Assembly (NCBI GenBank): GCA_021789095.1
Contig: JAJYJX010000132.1
Coordinates: forward strand, 1-6,427
From: a bacterium
GTDB lineage: Bacteria > JAMCPX01
Length of the DNA stretch: 6,427 nucleotides
Reading direction: 5' to 3'
Every line of letters begins with the position of its first letter. Within the stretch, counting starts at the first letter, position 1. The notes below the pieces were generated by a model. The model worked only from the letters and a program-made list of their open reading frames with translations. It did no database searches and had not been told where the DNA came from. This document shows positions 2 through 6,427 of the stretch, piece by piece. The position numbers and the translations under genes are program-made.

Positions 2-586
2 CTTGTTCCTCCGCCGCTGAGGGCCATACTCGATGGCAGGGAAACACGACTGGATGGCTTTGTATACCCGGGTCATGTAAGTGTGATAATAGGTTCAAAG
101 CCGTATGAATTTATACCCAAGGAATACGGTATCCCCGGGGCTATTACGGGTTTTGAGCCCGCCGATTTACTTATCGGTATAATTTCTGTTTTGAAGCAGA
201 TAGAAGATGAGAACCCCAGTGTGGATATAGCGTACAAAAGGGCAGTAAAACCCGAGGGTAATCTTCTGGCAAGGAGAATAATGGAAAACAAATTCTTTGT
301 TGCTGATGCCGATTGGAGGGGATTCGGAATGCTCCCCGGCAGTGGATTAAAGCTCAAGAATGAACGGATGGATGCAGAAAGAGCATTCCAGCTCGATTTT
401 GCCACTGTATGGGAAAATAATGCATGCAGGTGCGGAGATGTTGTAAAAGGGAAAATTGAGCCTGAGGAATGCGCCTTATTCAAAAAGGTATGCACCCCTG
501 AAAAGCCAATAGGACCGTGCATGGTCTCCATGGAAGGGGCATGTCTTATTCATTATAAATACAGCGGGGTCACATGGACAGAATAA
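2..586 (+). CDS. hypD: Hydrogenase maturation protein HypD, C-terminal part (5' end outside window)
   Basis: HypD is a cytoplasmic iron-sulfur scaffold. With HypC it holds the iron atom on which the CN and CO ligands of [NiFe]-hydrogenase are assembled, receiving cyanide from HypE. Reading is open from base 2 with no start codon needed, and about 194 residues are visible against a usual length near 360, so roughly the N-terminal half is missing off the left edge. Seen in the sequence: the family stretch 'LDGFVYPGHVSVIIG', then 'GFEPADLL', then the Cys-rich C-terminus with CRCGDVVKG, a Cys in PEEC, VCTP, GPCM and EGAC, which in this family includes the ligands of a [4Fe-4S] cluster. A methionine-initiated reading from position 83 would cut through the conserved domain and is not the real start. 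The last 13 bases overlap hypE, indicating translational coupling. Identity is very secure. Confidence 0.95.
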   Translation, partial: LVPPPLRAILDGRETRLDGFVYPGHVSVIIGSKPYEFIPKEYGIPGAITGFEPADLLIGIISVLKQIEDENPSVDIAYKRAVKPEGNLLARRIMENKFFVADADWRGFGMLPGSGLKLKNERMDAERAFQLDFATVWENNACRCGDVVKGKIEPEECALFKKVCTPEKPIGPCMVSMEGACLIHYKYSGVTWTE

Positions 587-1560
587 GTTTAAGCCTTGGG
601 TCGGGTGGAAAACTTATGAGGGACTTTCTCAGGGAAGGTGTTCTGAAACATTTCGGCAACGAATATTTAAATAAACTCGCCGATAGTACTCACATAGAAC
701 TGAGCGGCAAGATCGGTTTCACAACAGATAGCTTTGTCATCACTCCACTTTTCTTTCCCGGAGGAGACATTGGCAGGCTTTCAGTAGCAGGTACGGTCAA
801 TGATCTTGTTGTTTCAGGGATAAGACCGGGATTCTTATCCCTGTCATTGATTATAGAAGAGGGGTTTCCGGTTAATGACCTTGAACTAATATTCCGGTCT
901 ATAAAAAAAGCCTTACAAGAGGCAGGAGTTGAAATTGTTACAGGAGATACGAAGGTTGTCAGGAAGGGTGAAGCGGATGGTATTTACATAAATACAGCCG
1001 GCATTGGTAAGGTAATAGCAGAACCTGCAGAATTGAATAATGGCGACCCGATCGTCATTACAGGCTCCCCGGGTGACCACTCTGTCGCTATAATGGTGGC
1101 AAGGGGCGAATTTACCTTTGATGGAGAAGATATAAAGAGCGATTGCCAGCCGCTGAATGATTTACTGCCATTATGGGGCCGCGGTGTTAAATGGATGAGG
1201 GACATAACAAGAGGCGGGCTCGCAACAATCCTTTGTGAACTTGCAGAAGCTGAGAGTGTTGCAGTTTCCATAGAAGAATCTGATGTTCCTTTTTCACCGC
1301 CTGTCAGGGCGGCATCGGAAATCCTTGGTATAGATCCATTTTATCTTGCAAGTGAGGGGAAGGCAGTTCTCGTTGTTGCTCCTAAAAGTGCAGATGAAAT
1401 TCTTAGGTATCTTAAAACCCTTGAATATGGTAAAGAATCAAGAATAATTGGCAAAATTGGTGGTATAGGTAAAAACGGGGAGCTTGTTTTAAAGACCATC
1501 TCAGGTGGATTACGTATTATGGAACCTCTTACAGGCGAGTTGTTGCCAAGGATATGCTAA
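574..1560 (+). CDS. hypE: Hydrogenase maturation protein HypE (carbamoyl dehydratase)
   Basis: HypE takes the carbamoyl group that HypF places on its C-terminal cysteine and, using ATP, dehydrates it to a thiocyanate that supplies the CN ligands to HypC/HypD. It is cytoplasmic. The protein is 328 residues, about the family's usual length. It starts with the glycine-rich N-terminus (ISLSLGSGGKLMRDF), followed by the PurM-like ATP-binding core (TTDSFVITPLFFPGGDIG, VAGTVNDLVVSG, EEGFP, TGDTKVV), then DITRGGLAT and ASEGK in the second domain. It ends exactly in PRIC, so the acceptor cysteine is the final residue and the gene is intact. The ATG lies inside hypD in another frame, giving a 13-base overlap. 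A functional HypE implies that the host makes at least one [NiFe]-hydrogenase, although none is encoded in this window. Confidence 0.96.
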   Translation: MDRISLSLGSGGKLMRDFLREGVLKHFGNEYLNKLADSTHIELSGKIGFTTDSFVITPLFFPGGDIGRLSVAGTVNDLVVSGIRPGFLSLSLIIEEGFPVNDLELIFRSIKKALQEAGVEIVTGDTKVVRKGEADGIYINTAGIGKVIAEPAELNNGDPIVITGSPGDHSVAIMVARGEFTFDGEDIKSDCQPLNDLLPLWGRGVKWMRDITRGGLATILCELAEAESVAVSIEESDVPFSPPVRAASEILGIDPFYLASEGKAVLVVAPKSADEILRYLKTLEYGKESRIIGKIGGIGKNGELVLKTISGGLRIMEPLTGELLPRIC

Positions 1561-1736: not shown

Positions 1737-1752
1737 TGGCATAATGTATGCC
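1737..1752 (+). promoter_or_regulatory. Candidate sigma-54 (-24/-12) promoter for the GcvH-like/HybAB operon
   Basis: TGGCATAATGTATGCC carries the invariant GG (1738-1739) and GC (1750-1751) separated by exactly 10 bases, with a full TGGCA at the -24 side and TGC at the -12 side (consensus TGGCACG-N4-TTGCW). The predicted start of transcription is near 1763, just before the ribosome binding site at 1769-1776, leaving a leader of about 19 bases. The same bases form a perfect palindrome, ATGGCATA (1736-1743) and TATGCCAT (1747-1754) around ATG, so an operator is an alternative reading, or a repressor could share the site. If it is a sigma-54 promoter, transcription depends on an activator and ATP hydrolysis. 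Confidence 0.55.
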
Positions 1753-1781: not shown

Positions 1782-2513
1782 ATGGAAAACAACAAAAGAT
1801 GTCCATTCCTGAAGATCCAGGCATGCGGGTATTGTTCATTGTTCTCTGTAAGGAAGATGATACCCATAGACCAGATGAAAACCGAAAGCCTCTGTCTTTC
1901 CCAGGAATACCAGCATTGCGAGCAGTATATTGATATGGAGAAAAAATCACTGAGCAAGCCTGCAGCAAGTATGAATGAGGATGTTAAAGGATTTATAATC
2001 AGAAAAAATTACTTTTACAATTATGGACATACATGGGTGAAGAAAGAGAACGAAAACGAAGTGAGGATCGGGATTGATGATTTTGCCAGCAAGCTGTTGG
2101 GCAGCATAAAACGTGTGGAACTTATATCCGGCACAAATGCATTGAACTCGGGCAAGGTTTTCATGAAGGTATGGTGCGGAGAAAAAAATGCTTACCTGAT
2201 AAGCCCTGTAGATGGAATGGTACTGGAGGTCAATAAGCTTGTAAAAGAGGATGCCGGTATAGTTAAAAGGGAACCTTATGACAACGGATGGCTCCTGCTG
2301 GCGAAAACCAAAAACGAGGGACTTAAATGGCTGTTCAGCGGGACTATCGCAAAGGAATGGGTAAAAATAGAAACTGAACGGCTGCACAATATTATCGGAC
2401 AGGATGTTGGTACCACGGTTACGGACGGCGGCGTTATGATTGAGAGGCTGACATCACTGATGCAGGAAGAAGAATGGAATGCCTTTATAAGGGCATTCAT
2501 GCTGAACGGTTAA
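1782..2513 (+). CDS. Soluble GcvH-like protein with N-terminal Cys-rich segment, lacking the standard lipoyl-lysine motif
   Basis: The protein has 243 residues and three parts. Residues 1-50 contain Cys7, Cys15, Cys18, Cys38 and Cys46 (CPFL, CGYC, then CLSQEYQHC), which looks like a small metal- or cluster-binding segment. Residues about 75-176 resemble glycine cleavage H protein (GHTWV, IGIDDFASKLLG, ISPVDGMVLEVN, DNGWLL). In true GcvH a lipoylated Lys lies six residues before the S/A-P-V of this last motif; here that position is Glu134, with Lys135 one residue on and no ESVKA-like context, so lipoylation is doubtful. Residues about 180-243 are a helical tail with VGTTVTDGG, absent from GcvH but shared with the next gene. 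No signal peptide or membrane helix is seen, so it is probably cytoplasmic. No P, T or L protein genes are nearby. As first gene of the operon it probably serves the HybAB-type complex, but the actual role is unknown. Confidence 0.85.
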   Translation: MENNKRCPFLKIQACGYCSLFSVRKMIPIDQMKTESLCLSQEYQHCEQYIDMEKKSLSKPAASMNEDVKGFIIRKNYFYNYGHTWVKKENENEVRIGIDDFASKLLGSIKRVELISGTNALNSGKVFMKVWCGEKNAYLISPVDGMVLEVNKLVKEDAGIVKREPYDNGWLLLAKTKNEGLKWLFSGTIAKEWVKIETERLHNIIGQDVGTTVTDGGVMIERLTSLMQEEEWNAFIRAFMLNG

Positions 2514-2538
2514 AAAAATAAAAAAGGAGGCGAGTAAA

Positions 2539-3225
2539 ATGGTAGCGATAATGGTTGCAATAACGATCATCGGGTTTGTTGTTTTAGACCTGGTGCTTCA
2601 GGCAGTAAGAAAGAAAGAAGAGATTGCAGAAAAACAGGTTGAACTCGAATTCTCGGACTTTCGTGTGCCTATGGCAACCTTCTTTTACCCAGGACATACA
2701 TGGGTAAACATACTCCCTACAGGCGATGTTCATGTGGGTCTTGACGACTTCTCCAGAAAGGTAATAGGCAATATAGAACATATAGAATTTCCGAAAGAGG
2801 GCAGGATGCTCAAACAGGGAGAGAGTGCCTTCACGGTAAAGAGCGGCAGCAAAACGCTTACCTTCCTGTCGCCTGTTGACGGAGAAGTCATCGGCATAAA
2901 CAGAATGATGCTTTCCAACCCGGCAGAGGTATCGAGAAACGCGTACGGCAGCGGATGGGTGCTGAATCTAAAACCTACAAATCTCTCTGTAAACCTTAAA
3001 GCAATGAAGATAGCTGAAGATGCAGTAGCGTGGCTGAAGGTAGAACTCAGGAGGTTCCGTGAATTCGCACTTGGTGAGAACCTCCAGCACATAAAGGACG
3101 AACTGCAGTACGAGGTAGGGCGCACAAGCCAGGACGGCGGATTCCTTACGGAAGGCATGCTGGGACGTATGGACGAAGAGGCAGTAAAGTACTTTGAAAA
3201 AGAGTTCCTGGGAAGGAAAGAGTAA
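2539..3225 (+). CDS. Membrane-anchored GcvH-like protein, paralogue of the preceding gene
   Basis: The product has 228 residues. Residues 3-22 form one hydrophobic helix followed by RKKEE, so by the positive-inside rule the rest faces the cytoplasm. Residues about 50-146 are GcvH-like (GHTWV, VGLDDFSRKVIG, LSPVDGEVIGIN, GSGWVLNL). The residue aligned with the lipoyl lysine of GcvH is Ser104, with Lys105 next to it, the same one-residue shift as in the upstream paralogue. Residues about 155-228 are a charged helical tail with EVGRTSQDGG, matching VGTTVTDGG upstream. The membrane helix replaces the Cys-rich segment of the upstream protein. AAGGAGG (2524-2530) precedes the ATG by 8 bases, favouring this start over a Met codon at 2551. 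It could tether or scaffold the complex, or carry an acyl or other group; this cannot be told from sequence. Confidence 0.85.
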   Translation: MVAIMVAITIIGFVVLDLVLQAVRKKEEIAEKQVELEFSDFRVPMATFFYPGHTWVNILPTGDVHVGLDDFSRKVIGNIEHIEFPKEGRMLKQGESAFTVKSGSKTLTFLSPVDGEVIGINRMMLSNPAEVSRNAYGSGWVLNLKPTNLSVNLKAMKIAEDAVAWLKVELRRFREFALGENLQHIKDELQYEVGRTSQDGGFLTEGMLGRMDEEAVKYFEKEFLGRKE

Positions 3226-3276
3226 ATACTGTTGGCAATGACGGGATAAAATTACAGAAACAGAAGAGGAGCAGAT

Positions 3277-4089
3277 ATGGCTAAGATGGGTATTCTTATA
3301 GACATAACAAAATGCATAGGGTGCAAGGCATGTGAAAAGGCATGCAAGATGCGAAATGACCAGCCTCTTACTCTGGATGAGCATCTTTCTGCCAATGCAT
3401 ATACCGTTGTTCAGGAAAGACTGCCCAATACGTATGTAAGAAGGATGTGCATGCACTGTGAGAACCCGACATGCGTATCGGTCTGCCCTGTAGGAGCGTT
3501 CACAAAAACAGCGGCCGGTCCGGTTGTTTATGACAAGTATAAATGCATAGGCTGCAGGTACTGCATGTATTCATGTCCCTTCAGTGTGCCGAAGTATCAG
3601 TGGAACAAAGTCGTACCGTATGTGCAGAAGTGCTACATGTGTGCGGACAGGATTGAAGAGGGGTCCGAGCCGGCGTGCACGGCAGCGTGTCCCACGGGTG
3701 CAAGCATATTCGGCGAAAGGGATAAGCTCATAGAAGAAGCACAGAAAAGGATCAAGGACAACCCGGACAGGTATGTTGATCACATATACGGGCTGCACGA
3801 GGTTGGCGGCACATCGATACTCTACATCTCAAATGTTGAATTTGAACAGTTCAAGGCACCGTTTAACATAGCTCTGCCTGACAAGCCGCTGCCCATGTAC
3901 ACATGGGCTGCACTTGAGAAAGTTCCGACTATCGTAGTCGTGGGCGGTGTTGTGCTGACAGGCATATGGTGGATAACGAGCCGCAGGGGAGAGGTCGAAA
4001 AGTTTGAGGCAGGAAGTAAGCAGGAGCACTGGTGGCGGTTTGGGAAGAAGCAAGAGGGTGTAAAAGAAAAAAAAGAGGATAAACAATGA
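3277..4089 (+). CDS. hybA: HybA-like four-cluster ferredoxin subunit with C-terminal membrane helix, no Tat signal
   Basis: This is an electron-transfer subunit of the HybA/DmsB/HmcB type, passing electrons between a catalytic or cytochrome partner and a quinone-facing membrane subunit. Sixteen cysteines form four [4Fe-4S] sets: Cys13/16/19/23, Cys58/61/66/70, Cys90/93/96/100 and Cys119/122/134/138. A GxxxILYISNV segment and a linker lead to one membrane helix at about 216-234, followed by RR and a lysine-rich tail. Escherichia coli HybA has this layout but begins with a Tat signal. Here an in-frame stop at 3247-3249 lies close upstream of the ATG, so no leader is encoded. The basic tail predicts a periplasmic ferredoxin domain, which would then need a Tat-carrying partner, as for FdnH; otherwise the topology is reversed. 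AGAGGA lies 6 bases before the ATG. The symbol is by similarity; the partner is unknown. Confidence 0.88.
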   Translation: MAKMGILIDITKCIGCKACEKACKMRNDQPLTLDEHLSANAYTVVQERLPNTYVRRMCMHCENPTCVSVCPVGAFTKTAAGPVVYDKYKCIGCRYCMYSCPFSVPKYQWNKVVPYVQKCYMCADRIEEGSEPACTAACPTGASIFGERDKLIEEAQKRIKDNPDRYVDHIYGLHEVGGTSILYISNVEFEQFKAPFNIALPDKPLPMYTWAALEKVPTIVVVGGVVLTGIWWITSRRGEVEKFEAGSKQEHWWRFGKKQEGVKEKKEDKQ

Positions 4090-4313
4090 GTATTATAGAT
4101 ACGATATTCTCCAAAACAGGATTGCCTTCGGGCACAAAGAACAATAATGCAACAGCGCAGCTTAAGCTGCTTGCCAACCGGCTGCCGTTGCTTAAATCAT
4201 TGCACCTGACTGATATAGCCCTGGCAGGCGGCCTGTATTGGATAATAGACAGGAGAATGAAATTTGATAGCACAGGGCACAAAGTTGCATCAGGACAGCC
4301 CGATAAGAAATAG
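4086..4313 (+). CDS. Small 75-residue protein between HybA-like and HybB-like subunits
   Basis: I do not recognise a family. The product is basic, with a polar N-terminus (MSIIDTIFSKTGLPSGTKNNN), a leucine-rich amphipathic stretch (QLKLLANRLPLLKSLHL), a short weakly hydrophobic segment (IALAGGLYWII) and a polar C-terminal tail. Its ATG overlaps the TGA of the preceding gene (ATGA, 4086-4089), with GAGG just before, and its TAG stop touches the AGGAGG of the next gene. This coupling on both sides argues for a real gene and a defined ratio with HybA/HybB. It may be a small structural subunit at the membrane surface, comparable in position and size, but not demonstrably in sequence, to small subunits such as HmcD of the Hmc complex. 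Confidence 0.7.
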   Translation: MSIIDTIFSKTGLPSGTKNNNATAQLKLLANRLPLLKSLHLTDIALAGGLYWIIDRRMKFDSTGHKVASGQPDKK

Positions 4314-4324
4314 GAGGAATTACG

Positions 4325-5476
4325 ATGGTCAGAATACCGAAGATAACATTCTGGAGGATTATAATCGCCGTCATAATGGTCCTTGGTATTTATTACACGG
4401 TTATACGATACACGCAGGGGCTTGGCGCTGTAACAAACCTGAGCGACCAGTATCCCTGGGGATTATGGGTGGCATTTGATGTTATAACAGGTGTAGGACT
4501 TGCAGCTGGCGGGTTCCTGATAGCACTCACCGTATACATATTCCGCATCGACAATTATAAACCCATACTGAGACCTGCAATACTGACCGGGTTTTTAGGG
4601 TATACCCTTGTCGCGGTGGGCCTTCTCTACGACCTGGGCAAATGGTTCGATATATGGCATGCGATTATATTCTGGAACCCGCGCTCCGTGATGTTCGAGG
4701 TTGCATGGTGCGTTATGCTCTATCTGACGGTCCTTGCACTCGAGTTCAGTACCGTGGTGTTCGAAGGACTGAAATGGAAAAGGCTGAACCAGTTGATCCA
4801 TATGTTGATAATACCGCTCGCAATATTCGGGGTGATACTGTCAACGCTGCACCAGTCATCCCTTGGCTCGCTGTTCCTTATCGTTCCTGCAAAGTTGTAT
4901 ACCTTATGGTACTCTCCACTCCTGCCTTTGTTCTTTTTTATCTCAGCCGTATCGGTTGGTTTTGCAATGGTGACGTTTGAATCCTTCCTGAGCAGGAGAT
5001 TTCTCGGCAAGGGCATAGAACTTAACCTTCTCAACGGTCTCGCACGGGTCAATGTACTCGTCATGATATTTTATCTCACCATAAAGATATGGGATCTTGC
5101 CGGCAGGGGCGTACTGGGCGATGTTCTGTCAACGAGGTTTGAAAGCATAATGTTTGACATAGAAACGCTTGTGCAGGTGATTATACCCCTGGTATTGCTG
5201 CTGATCCCTGCGGTAAGGACCAGTACCAAAGGACTGTTCGTCTCGTCCCTGTTCGTCATTGTAGGATTTATCATGAACAGGCTCGATGTTGCCATAACGG
5301 GTATCGAGGCTTCGTCCGGCGCACATTACTTCCCCGCATTCGGGGAAATAGCAATATCCATCTTTATTGTGACCATAGGCTTCCTTGCATTTGCCTTCCT
5401 GGCAAAGCATTTCCCCGTGTTTATTGAACCGAAGGAAAATGAGGAAGAACCGGTTGAGATTGTACATGATATTTGA
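4325..5476 (+). CDS. hybB: HybB-like integral membrane subunit (NrfD/PsrC superfamily), quinone-facing
   Basis: The 383-residue product is almost entirely hydrophobic, with about ten membrane helices as in E. coli HybB, which is of similar length. Diagnostic segments resemble HybB closely: GLGAVTNLSDQYPWGLWVAFD (about residues 32-52), GLAAGGF, RPAILTGFLGYTL (83-95), a Glu-containing VMFEVAWC (122-129), ALEF, LHQSSLGSL (175-183) and HYFPAFGEIAIS near the end. Members of this superfamily exchange electrons and protons with menaquinone without haem, using a ferredoxin subunit such as the HybA-like product upstream. AGGAGG (4312-4317) lies 7 bases before the ATG, and the gap to the previous stop is 11 bases. 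HybB normally works with hydrogenase HybOC, but the same pair is also found in other respiratory complexes, so the electron source is open. The acidic C-terminus (KENEEEPVE) is unremarkable. Confidence 0.92.
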   Translation: MVRIPKITFWRIIIAVIMVLGIYYTVIRYTQGLGAVTNLSDQYPWGLWVAFDVITGVGLAAGGFLIALTVYIFRIDNYKPILRPAILTGFLGYTLVAVGLLYDLGKWFDIWHAIIFWNPRSVMFEVAWCVMLYLTVLALEFSTVVFEGLKWKRLNQLIHMLIIPLAIFGVILSTLHQSSLGSLFLIVPAKLYTLWYSPLLPLFFFISAVSVGFAMVTFESFLSRRFLGKGIELNLLNGLARVNVLVMIFYLTIKIWDLAGRGVLGDVLSTRFESIMFDIETLVQVIIPLVLLLIPAVRTSTKGLFVSSLFVIVGFIMNRLDVAITGIEASSGAHYFPAFGEIAISIFIVTIGFLAFAFLAKHFPVFIEPKENEEEPVEIVHDI

Positions 5477-5534
5477 CCCAAAAGTTTATTTGAAAAGAAG
5501 CGAACAAACAAACCTCGCTGTTGGAGATAAACAT

Positions 5535-5975
5535 ATGAAACCATATAGAATGTTGATTGTAATTACGATACAGATGTTTTTTATGTCCTATGCCTCTCAT
5601 GCCGTAGCTGCAGCTCATATGTACGTAGGCATTGAACCATGCAAAATGTGCCATGAAAAACAGTACAAGGTATGGGAAGAAAGTGCACATGCAAAGGCTT
5701 ATGACGTGTTGAATGCGAAAGAAAAGACCGATCCAGAATGTTTATCATGCCACACAACAAACGGCACGAGTGCATTCCCAAATGTGCAGTGTGAAGCGTG
5801 TCACGGTCCAGGCAGCGATTATTCAGACATGGACACGATGAAAAACTTCAAGAAGGTATGGGATGCAGGGTTAAACCGCCATGCAGCAGATACCTGTGTT
5901 AACTGTCACAATAAAAAGAGCCCCACATTCAAGGGATTTGATTTCAAGACACACTGGATGAAGATAATGCACTGA
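5535..5975 (+). CDS. Secreted tetraheme cytochrome c, cytochrome c554-like
   Basis: The product has 146 residues. Residues 1-27 are a Sec signal peptide (basic KPYR, hydrophobic LIVITIQMFFM, likely cleavage after SHAVA or AVAAA), so it acts in the periplasm. Four CXXCH haem-binding motifs follow: C36KMCH, C69LSCH, C86EACH and C121VNCH. His52 (ESAHAKAY), His116, His140 and the terminal His146 are candidate distal ligands. The sequence CKMCHEKQYKVWEESAHA together with CEACHGPG is typical of cytochrome c554-type multihaem domains. GGAG (5523-5526) lies 8 bases before the ATG and gives a proper signal peptide, so the longer in-frame reading from 5385 inside hybB is rejected. It follows hybB by 58 bases with no visible terminator, so probably shares the operon. 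It may deliver electrons to or accept them from the HybAB-type complex; its specific partner is unknown. Confidence 0.9.
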   Translation: MKPYRMLIVITIQMFFMSYASHAVAAAHMYVGIEPCKMCHEKQYKVWEESAHAKAYDVLNAKEKTDPECLSCHTTNGTSAFPNVQCEACHGPGSDYSDMDTMKNFKKVWDAGLNRHAADTCVNCHNKKSPTFKGFDFKTHWMKIMH

Positions 5976-6090: not shown

Positions 6091-6427
6091 TCATGAGATG
6101 AATTCAATCTTTACATCCGGCACGAGCTTTAGCTTCACTGCTTGTTCGATGAACTCCTGTACAGCGCTCCTGCCTTCTTTCCCGGGCTCGAGCGTGTAAT
6201 CATTCACGTACATGAGTGCGAACTGCTTTACCCTCCTCATGTCCAGCCCCCTTGAGTATTTTGCCGCGTAGGTCATTGCCTCCTCCTCGTGAGAAAACCC
6301 GTATGCGATGCTGTCCTTTATCGCCTGGTTGATCCTGTGTTTGAGCCCTTCCTCCAGTGAACGTTTGACAAGGTTAATACCGAGAGGCAAAGGCAGGCCT
6401 GTTTTTTCAAGCCACCATTTGCCCAGG
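6091..6427 (-). CDS. mqnD: 1,4-dihydroxy-6-naphthoate synthase MqnD, C-terminal part (5' end outside window)
   Basis: MqnD converts cyclic dehypoxanthine futalosine to 1,4-dihydroxy-6-naphthoate in the futalosine route to menaquinone, in the cytoplasm. The frame is open to the right edge, giving about 111 visible residues of an expected 270-290. Seen: LGKWWLEKTGLPLPLGIN at the edge, then LKHRINQAIKDSIAYGFSHEEEAMTYA and YVNDYTLEPGKEGRSAVQEF, matching the C-terminal lobe of the MqnA/MqnD periplasmic-binding-like fold. The LPLPLG stretch favours MqnD over MqnA. A TTG at 6390 lies inside this conserved motif and is not the start. The gene converges on the cytochrome operon and so is separately transcribed. 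Its product, menaquinone, is the probable partner of the HybB-like subunit, but sharing the locus may be coincidental. Confidence 0.85.
   Translation of the reverse strand, partial: LGKWWLEKTGLPLPLGINLVKRSLEEGLKHRINQAIKDSIAYGFSHEEEAMTYAAKYSRGLDMRRVKQFALMYVNDYTLEPGKEGRSAVQEFIEQAVKLKLVPDVKIEFIS

Follow-up and report, generated by a model that had tools for sequence, protein, structure and literature searches.

The 6,427-nucleotide stretch analysed here (the window; one complete contig, G000:C69, of a 2.15-Mb draft genome) carries a run of six genes for two GcvH-like proteins, a HybA-like iron-sulfur subunit, a small protein, a HybB-like membrane subunit and a secreted tetraheme c-type cytochrome. 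We propose, at a probability of roughly one half, that this run encodes a quinone-linked redox module of the membrane that stands by itself and has a dedicated c-heme two-component system, not a hydrogenase, as its working partner, and that its GcvH-like proteins serve as non-lipoylated adaptors. The module itself, its partners, its putative promoter site and the loss of a lipoyl lysine are read from sequence. All six open reading frames (ORFs), as listed in a first-pass annotation of the same DNA, were confirmed in an ORF check and profile searches, each lying on the plus strand and belonging to a clear family (Table 1); none of the genes between 1561 and 6091 encodes a catalytic subunit, again as annotated.

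The partner was identified from gene neighbourhoods. GcvH-like genes were present within 8 kb at 48 of 71 HybB loci, and a c-heme sensor kinase at 42 of these 48 versus 1 of the 23 without them (Fisher 6e-12; sequences related). The ORF caller had missed GcvH genes, detected with tblastn, in L007, L008, L009 and L029, which makes the GcvH-free class slightly too large; the lone GcvH-free locus with a kinase, L029, does carry a GcvH-like gene. The kinase-less members of the 48 are three short contigs (L004, L005 and L142), the window, where a block is inserted (see below), and L172/L173, where the kinase is not nearby. Hydrogenase subunits, which the first-pass annotation had suggested looking for around HybB homologues with GcvH-like genes, were found within 8 kb at 0 of the 71 HybB loci, hence at 0 of the 48. 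On these neighbourhoods, the conserved partner of the module is a predicted c-heme two-component system and not a hydrogenase. The earlier alternative of a self-standing electron conduit was right but incomplete, the two-component partner having been beyond that reader's view.

The sensor of the kinase is a predicted periplasmic c-heme Cache-like domain with a CxxCH motif that passes the Mcp40H-20 cut-off, and 55 of 56 kinase sensors carry CX2CH plus CX4CH. A Cache-like periplasmic domain, CxxCH and a histidine kinase occur together, with heme attachment predicted, in the kinases of the sister loci and in that of contig C121 (see below). In L048 and L052, the kinase, protease and NtrC genes adjoin the operon. 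Two layouts were distinguished: layout A, that of the window, comprises GcvH, HybA, HybB, GcvH, kinase, NtrC-type regulator, M54 archaemetzincin and, in some loci (L186, L187), a tetraheme cytochrome, and layout B, in Bacteroidota, comprises a Tat-signal HybA, HybB, a 13-heme cytochrome, the kinase and then two proteins in which receiver domains are fused to GcvH-like domains. The colinear order GcvH-HybA-HybB-kinase-NtrC-M54 was also found on a Planctomycetia contig (L140), and a partial locus, NtrC-M54-GcvH, on a Myxococcota contig. In a Bacteroidota-group sample of 395 genomes, 45 of them with strong GcvH-like matches, M54 was found in all 22 genomes of the solo-GcvH layout (A), compared with 28 of 350 without such matches; 15 loci (L052:7743-8300, L048:7839-8396 and 13 more) have an M54 gene next to the c-heme kinase gene, to NtrC genes or to both. 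In L149-L168 (Bacteroidota group), the receiver-GcvH operons are often followed by genes for 19-, 16-, 4- and 14-heme cytochromes and a 421-aa protein, a multiheme set that resembles an extracellular electron-transfer cluster.

The operon is preceded by a putative sigma-54 promoter with GG at -24, GC at -12 and a fixed, conserved spacing. The pattern TGGCA[CT]-N5-[AT]TGC lies before GcvH1 in all 7 distinct operons compared from the window's phylum (the window plus six sister operons; L006 and L052 are one genome and were counted as one operon), at a near-constant distance (53-56 bp before the end of the compared stretches) within an upstream region that has diverged; its background is 0.012 per kb per strand. 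An NtrC-type regulator gene is found near the operons so preceded. Two operons of Bacteroidota (L186, L187) have the pattern as well; that the site is general to the Bacteroidota layout was rejected, since it is near the start in only two of the loci checked and far upstream in one more. An inverted repeat, TGTTGTAA...TTACAACA, at 1615-1651, upstream of the sigma-54 site, is a possible regulator-binding site.

Among NCBIfam models, the HybA-like protein matched HmcB (250 bits) above HybA (198 bits) and the HybB-like protein HmcC (330 bits) above HybB (310 bits), all under the equivalog cut-offs (420 for HmcB, 550 for HmcC). The HybB-like protein combines the family match with the quinone-site Asp and Ser residues of an NrfD-family quinone-interacting subunit: with residue roles taken from PMC8076601, D52, D103, S121, E125 and S182 of the quinone site and R83, Y93, E140 and H176 of the proton channel match E. 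coli HybB. A phmmer search of HybB against PDB sequences gave no match. In a tree, the HybB of the window and the layout-A HybBs without a Tat-signal HybA, Bacteroidota sequences among them, form one clade (support 99/96), separate from layout B and from Hmc. The HybA-like protein starts with MAKMGILIDITKCIGC and has no Tat signal of the kind expected for a Hyb operon. An inverted, cytosolic HybA/HybB was considered and is unsupported: the Lys plus Arg counts of the HybB loops match those of Tat-type HybBs and of E. coli HybB, and together with the positive charge of the HybA tail they give the pattern of the exported form, although the HybA of the window clade has no Tat signal. This HybA may be carried by a partner, or may face the cytoplasm. 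The small ORF is real, its sister homologues (L004, L005, L048) aligning at 67-70 versus a shuffled maximum of 40-51, and the segment GLYWIIDRR at the hydrophobic end of its product resembles the C-terminal anchor of HybA, GIWWITSRR. For the cytochrome, the ATG at 5535 was chosen as start and not the TTG at 5385; a homologue 73-79% identical is encoded at the equivalent position in five sister contigs.

For the electron route, the sensing role and the function of the GcvH-like proteins we infer the following working. HybA and HybB would exchange electrons with menaquinone and the tetraheme cytochrome would connect them to the periplasm, while the heme sensor would read the redox state of the periplasm or the quinone pool, or nitric oxide (NO), which a heme-Cache domain of a signalling protein binds (PMC12889525). 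Phospho-NtrC would turn the operon on, and the GcvH-like domains would serve as docking adaptors that link the proteins of the phosphorelay with the membrane subunits, a contact that would be covalent in the receiver-GcvH fusions of Bacteroidota. Least certain among these steps are the adaptor role and the sensing role. We put forward more tentatively that the module is a membrane redox-sensing complex, in which HybA/HybB, themselves without a catalytic enzyme, would sample the quinone pool via their iron-sulfur clusters, and the non-lipoylated GcvH-like proteins, free or receiver-fused, would carry its state to or from the c-heme kinase.

The alternative that survives best, and one to be taken seriously though we would not choose it, is an Hmc/Nhc-type respiratory complex under regulation: HybA and HybB would make up a quinol:cytochrome c oxidoreductase (or the reverse) together with the tetraheme cytochrome, the two-component system would only switch transcription on NO or redox signals, and the GcvH-like proteins would be assembly factors. 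The top matches to HmcB and HmcC, the sigma-54 site, the NO binding cited above and the cytochrome gene that adjoins HybB in the phylum of the window and, there for a 13-heme cytochrome, in the receiver-GcvH layout of Bacteroidota agree with such a complex; the direct fusion of receiver domains to GcvH-like domains speaks against it, as do 9 of 12 Bacteroidota-group window-type loci with a kinase (L175-L182, L184), which have no cytochrome gene within 8 kb and keep GcvH, HybA, HybB and the kinase. These nine loci tilt the balance to signalling over a plain oxidoreductase, but not strongly. Several points weigh against the module as we propose it. The window's phylum keeps the cytochrome, and an ordinary, transcriptionally controlled quinol:cytochrome c enzyme explains much without a sensing role; HybA lacks a Tat signal although its tail is positive and HybB has a seemingly standard topology, which makes the electron route uncertain; the sister genomes and many of the Bacteroidota loci are related, so that the counts are not independent; and most of the loci with GcvH-like genes came from searches with GcvH-like proteins as query.

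The GcvH-like proteins, judged by sequence and predicted structure, resemble the H-protein of glycine metabolism but have lost its lipoyl lysine. The H-protein fold is kept: the top Foldseek matches of the GcvH2 AlphaFold model (pTM 0.73; the GcvH1 model is poor across the first 62 residues) are the H-proteins of Thermus and E. coli, with TMt 0.92-0.93. At the predicted hairpin turn neither protein of the window has a lipoylatable lysine, the residues being Gly-Glu in GcvH1 and Gly-Ser in GcvH2, and a Lys one position off the lipoyl column in both leaves slight doubt. Across the family, the lipoyl-lysine column holds G, N, D, S, E and others and rarely K (2 of 44 scored solo proteins and 8 of 51 scored receiver fusions), and the position beside it is often Lys or Arg, so that a shifted lysine is possible in some members. 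A role as lipoyl carriers, like that of LbpA in Hdr-like sulfur oxidation, with the module drawing electrons from a lipoyl-bound substrate, agrees with the fold but is unsupported and very improbable from the lipoyl-column residues and the predicted turns. The DGG of the C-terminal extension is invariant in 27 of 27 and 28 of 28 aligned members; the N-terminal Cys pattern of GcvH1 is CPFL..C..C...C....C, and layout-A operons typically encode one member that begins as a transmembrane helix and a second one whose start is Cys-rich. Two ordinary-looking GcvH genes lie elsewhere in the window genome (G000:C98:3975-4358 and G000:C65:20244-20651; L102, L108), and the GcvH-like proteins of the module are therefore extra copies and not the sole H-proteins. 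In the plasmid records searched, GcvH matches were ordinary or partial only.

The HypD and HypE genes upstream of the run had led the first-pass annotation to favour a hydrogenase link. Contig C121 ends in 151 bases that recur, but for two mismatches (149/151), as the first 151 of the window; the overlap falls within hypD, and C121 in all likelihood lies just upstream of the window. This contig has QmoC/HdrC-like, NuoE/F-like, HdrA2-like, VhuD-, VhuG- and VhuA-like genes, a protease gene, hypA, hypF, hypC and hypD. Its [NiFe] subunit genes lie ~6 kb upstream of GcvH1; the large subunit scored 460 bits with VhuA versus 103 bits with the E. coli HybC model, which identifies the predicted enzyme as a cytosolic Vhu/Mvh-type [NiFe] hydrogenase rather than one of the exported HybC/HybO type. 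At its far end, C121 encodes a c-heme histidine kinase 80% identical to the kinase directly divergent from GcvH1 in the sister genome G002, and the M54 and NtrC neighbours of this kinase were found at the end of contig C124, whose join with C121 we infer from gene order only. In the window genome, a ~21-kb block with a GntR regulator, a cobalt/nickel-type ECF transporter, the Vhu/Mvh-Hdr hydrogenase and the hyp genes parts the kinase from the operon. This block is private to the window genome (1 of 9 in the phylum comparison set, which comprised the window genome and eight others, those eight all of one family), the sister genomes showing ~220-240 bp there. The module is present in 7 of the 8 sister-family genomes, and a profile search found a [NiFe] large subunit in 0 of the 8, their PF00374 matches spanning only the first 67-75 of 508 profile positions, like NuoD. 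Among the 40 Bacteroidota-group genomes with strong GcvH-like matches that were examined for [NiFe] enzymes, 27 are without any large subunit and 13 have one.

A 221-bp gap with the sigma-54 site separates the hyp block from GcvH1, and the operon does not contain the exported large and small subunits of a Group 1 [NiFe] Hyb operon. The link through HypDE was not borne out, given this gap, the Vhu/Mvh type of the upstream enzyme and its restriction to one of nine genomes. Catalytic subunits do lie outside the window, as had been allowed for, but they belong to this cytosolic, genome-private enzyme and are not part of the module; the adjacent [NiFe] genes that had been named as the mark of an ordinary Hyb operon exist in the letter, but enzyme type, private block and sigma-54 gap tell otherwise. 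An ordinary Hyb-type hydrogenase with its catalytic subunits elsewhere, to which the adjoining HypD and HypE and the [NiFe] genes upstream would point, is the least likely reading of all and was rejected, the module-bearing sister genomes and those 27 Bacteroidota-group genomes being free of hydrogenase and the upstream enzyme being of the Vhu/Mvh type.

In the open-access literature searched we found no account of GcvH-like genes with HybB, receiver domains or heme kinases, and the conserved module, which brings parts of known kinds into a new combination, is apparently undescribed. It recurs at least in the Bacteroidota group, in Planctomycetota and in the small phylum to which the window belongs, besides the partial Myxococcota locus. 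Three things that annotation normally leaves without a role thereby gain a conserved context: archaemetzincins of bacteria, HybA/HybB pairs that stand as orphans, and surplus genes labelled 'glycine cleavage H'. In metagenome surveys, such orphan pairs are easily misread as hydrogenases, and that reading is wrong here. If the GcvH-like proteins are signalling adaptors, a metabolic swinging-arm carrier would have been turned into a phosphorelay part; if the module is a redox-sensing complex, H-proteins would have been taken over as adaptors in signalling, and the archaemetzincins of bacteria would gain a functional context.

Table 1. Features of the window, with the module and its promoter site first and the neighbouring genes last.
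Feature	Position	Strand	Evidence and remarks
GcvH1	1782..2513	+	Pfam GCV_H 1.8e-19; Cys-rich N-terminus, hammerhead without lipoyl Lys, C-terminal extension with DGG
GcvH2	2539..3225	+	GCV_H 2.5e-18; N-terminal transmembrane helix 2-30, hammerhead without lipoyl Lys, DGG extension
HybA/HmcB-like iron-sulfur subunit	3277..4089	+	four Cys-rich 4Fe-4S motifs, C-terminal transmembrane anchor, no Tat signal
Small one-helix protein	4086..4313	+	homologous ORFs at equal position in L004, L005, L048
HybB/HmcC-like NrfD-family quinone-reactive membrane subunit	4325..5476	+	PF03916 1.1e-22; tree
Secreted tetraheme c-type cytochrome	5535..5975	+	146 aa, four CxxCH; Cytochrome_C554 1.2e-10
Putative sigma-54-type -24/-12 promoter site TGGCATAATGTATGCC	1737..1752	+	~30 bp 5' of the GcvH1 start codon; pattern conserved
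HypE, end of the upstream hydrogenase/hyp block (neighbour, outside the module)	574..1560	+	
HypD, 3' part (neighbour, outside the module)	2..586	+	overlaps the 3' end of contig C121
Menaquinone-biosynthesis gene (downstream neighbour)	6091-6426	-	

Compared with known systems, the module resembles the Hmc/Nhc/Ohc cytochrome-NrfD complexes of sulfate reducers in joining a periplasmic multiheme cytochrome, a four-cluster iron-sulfur subunit and an HmcC/NrfD-like membrane subunit without a molybdenum or nickel catalytic subunit. It differs from them in having four hemes only, no HmcD/E/F-like genes, two GcvH-like proteins, a HybA without Tat signal and a tie to a c-heme kinase, NtrC and M54; the set that would define an Hmc complex (HmcB and HmcC above the equivalog cut-offs, a 16-heme HmcA, HmcD-F) was not found. 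In the window's family of genomes, Hmc-like operons also occur separately, with receiver-domain genes at their flanks, as does an NrfD-six-heme-domain fusion (L067-L069, L051, L053, L054). With E. coli hydrogenase 2 (HybOABC) the module shares the HybA-HybB pair and the quinone and proton-channel residues of HybB, but it is without HybO and HybC, its HybA has no Tat signal and it has GcvH-like partners. The GcvH-like proteins share the hammerhead fold of GcvH and LbpA, with the TMt values to the Thermus and E. coli H-proteins given above; unlike these, they are without the lipoyl lysine, carry a C-terminal helical extension with an invariant DGG, have a membrane anchor, a Cys-rich stretch or a receiver domain as N-terminus and are not encoded beside gcv genes. 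The kinase, finally, has a predicted periplasmic Cache-like domain with CxxCH as in the heme-binding Cache sensors GSU0582/GSU0935 and Tll0287, from which it differs in the added CX4CH motif (55 of 56) and in its tie to a HybA/HybB/GcvH-like module.

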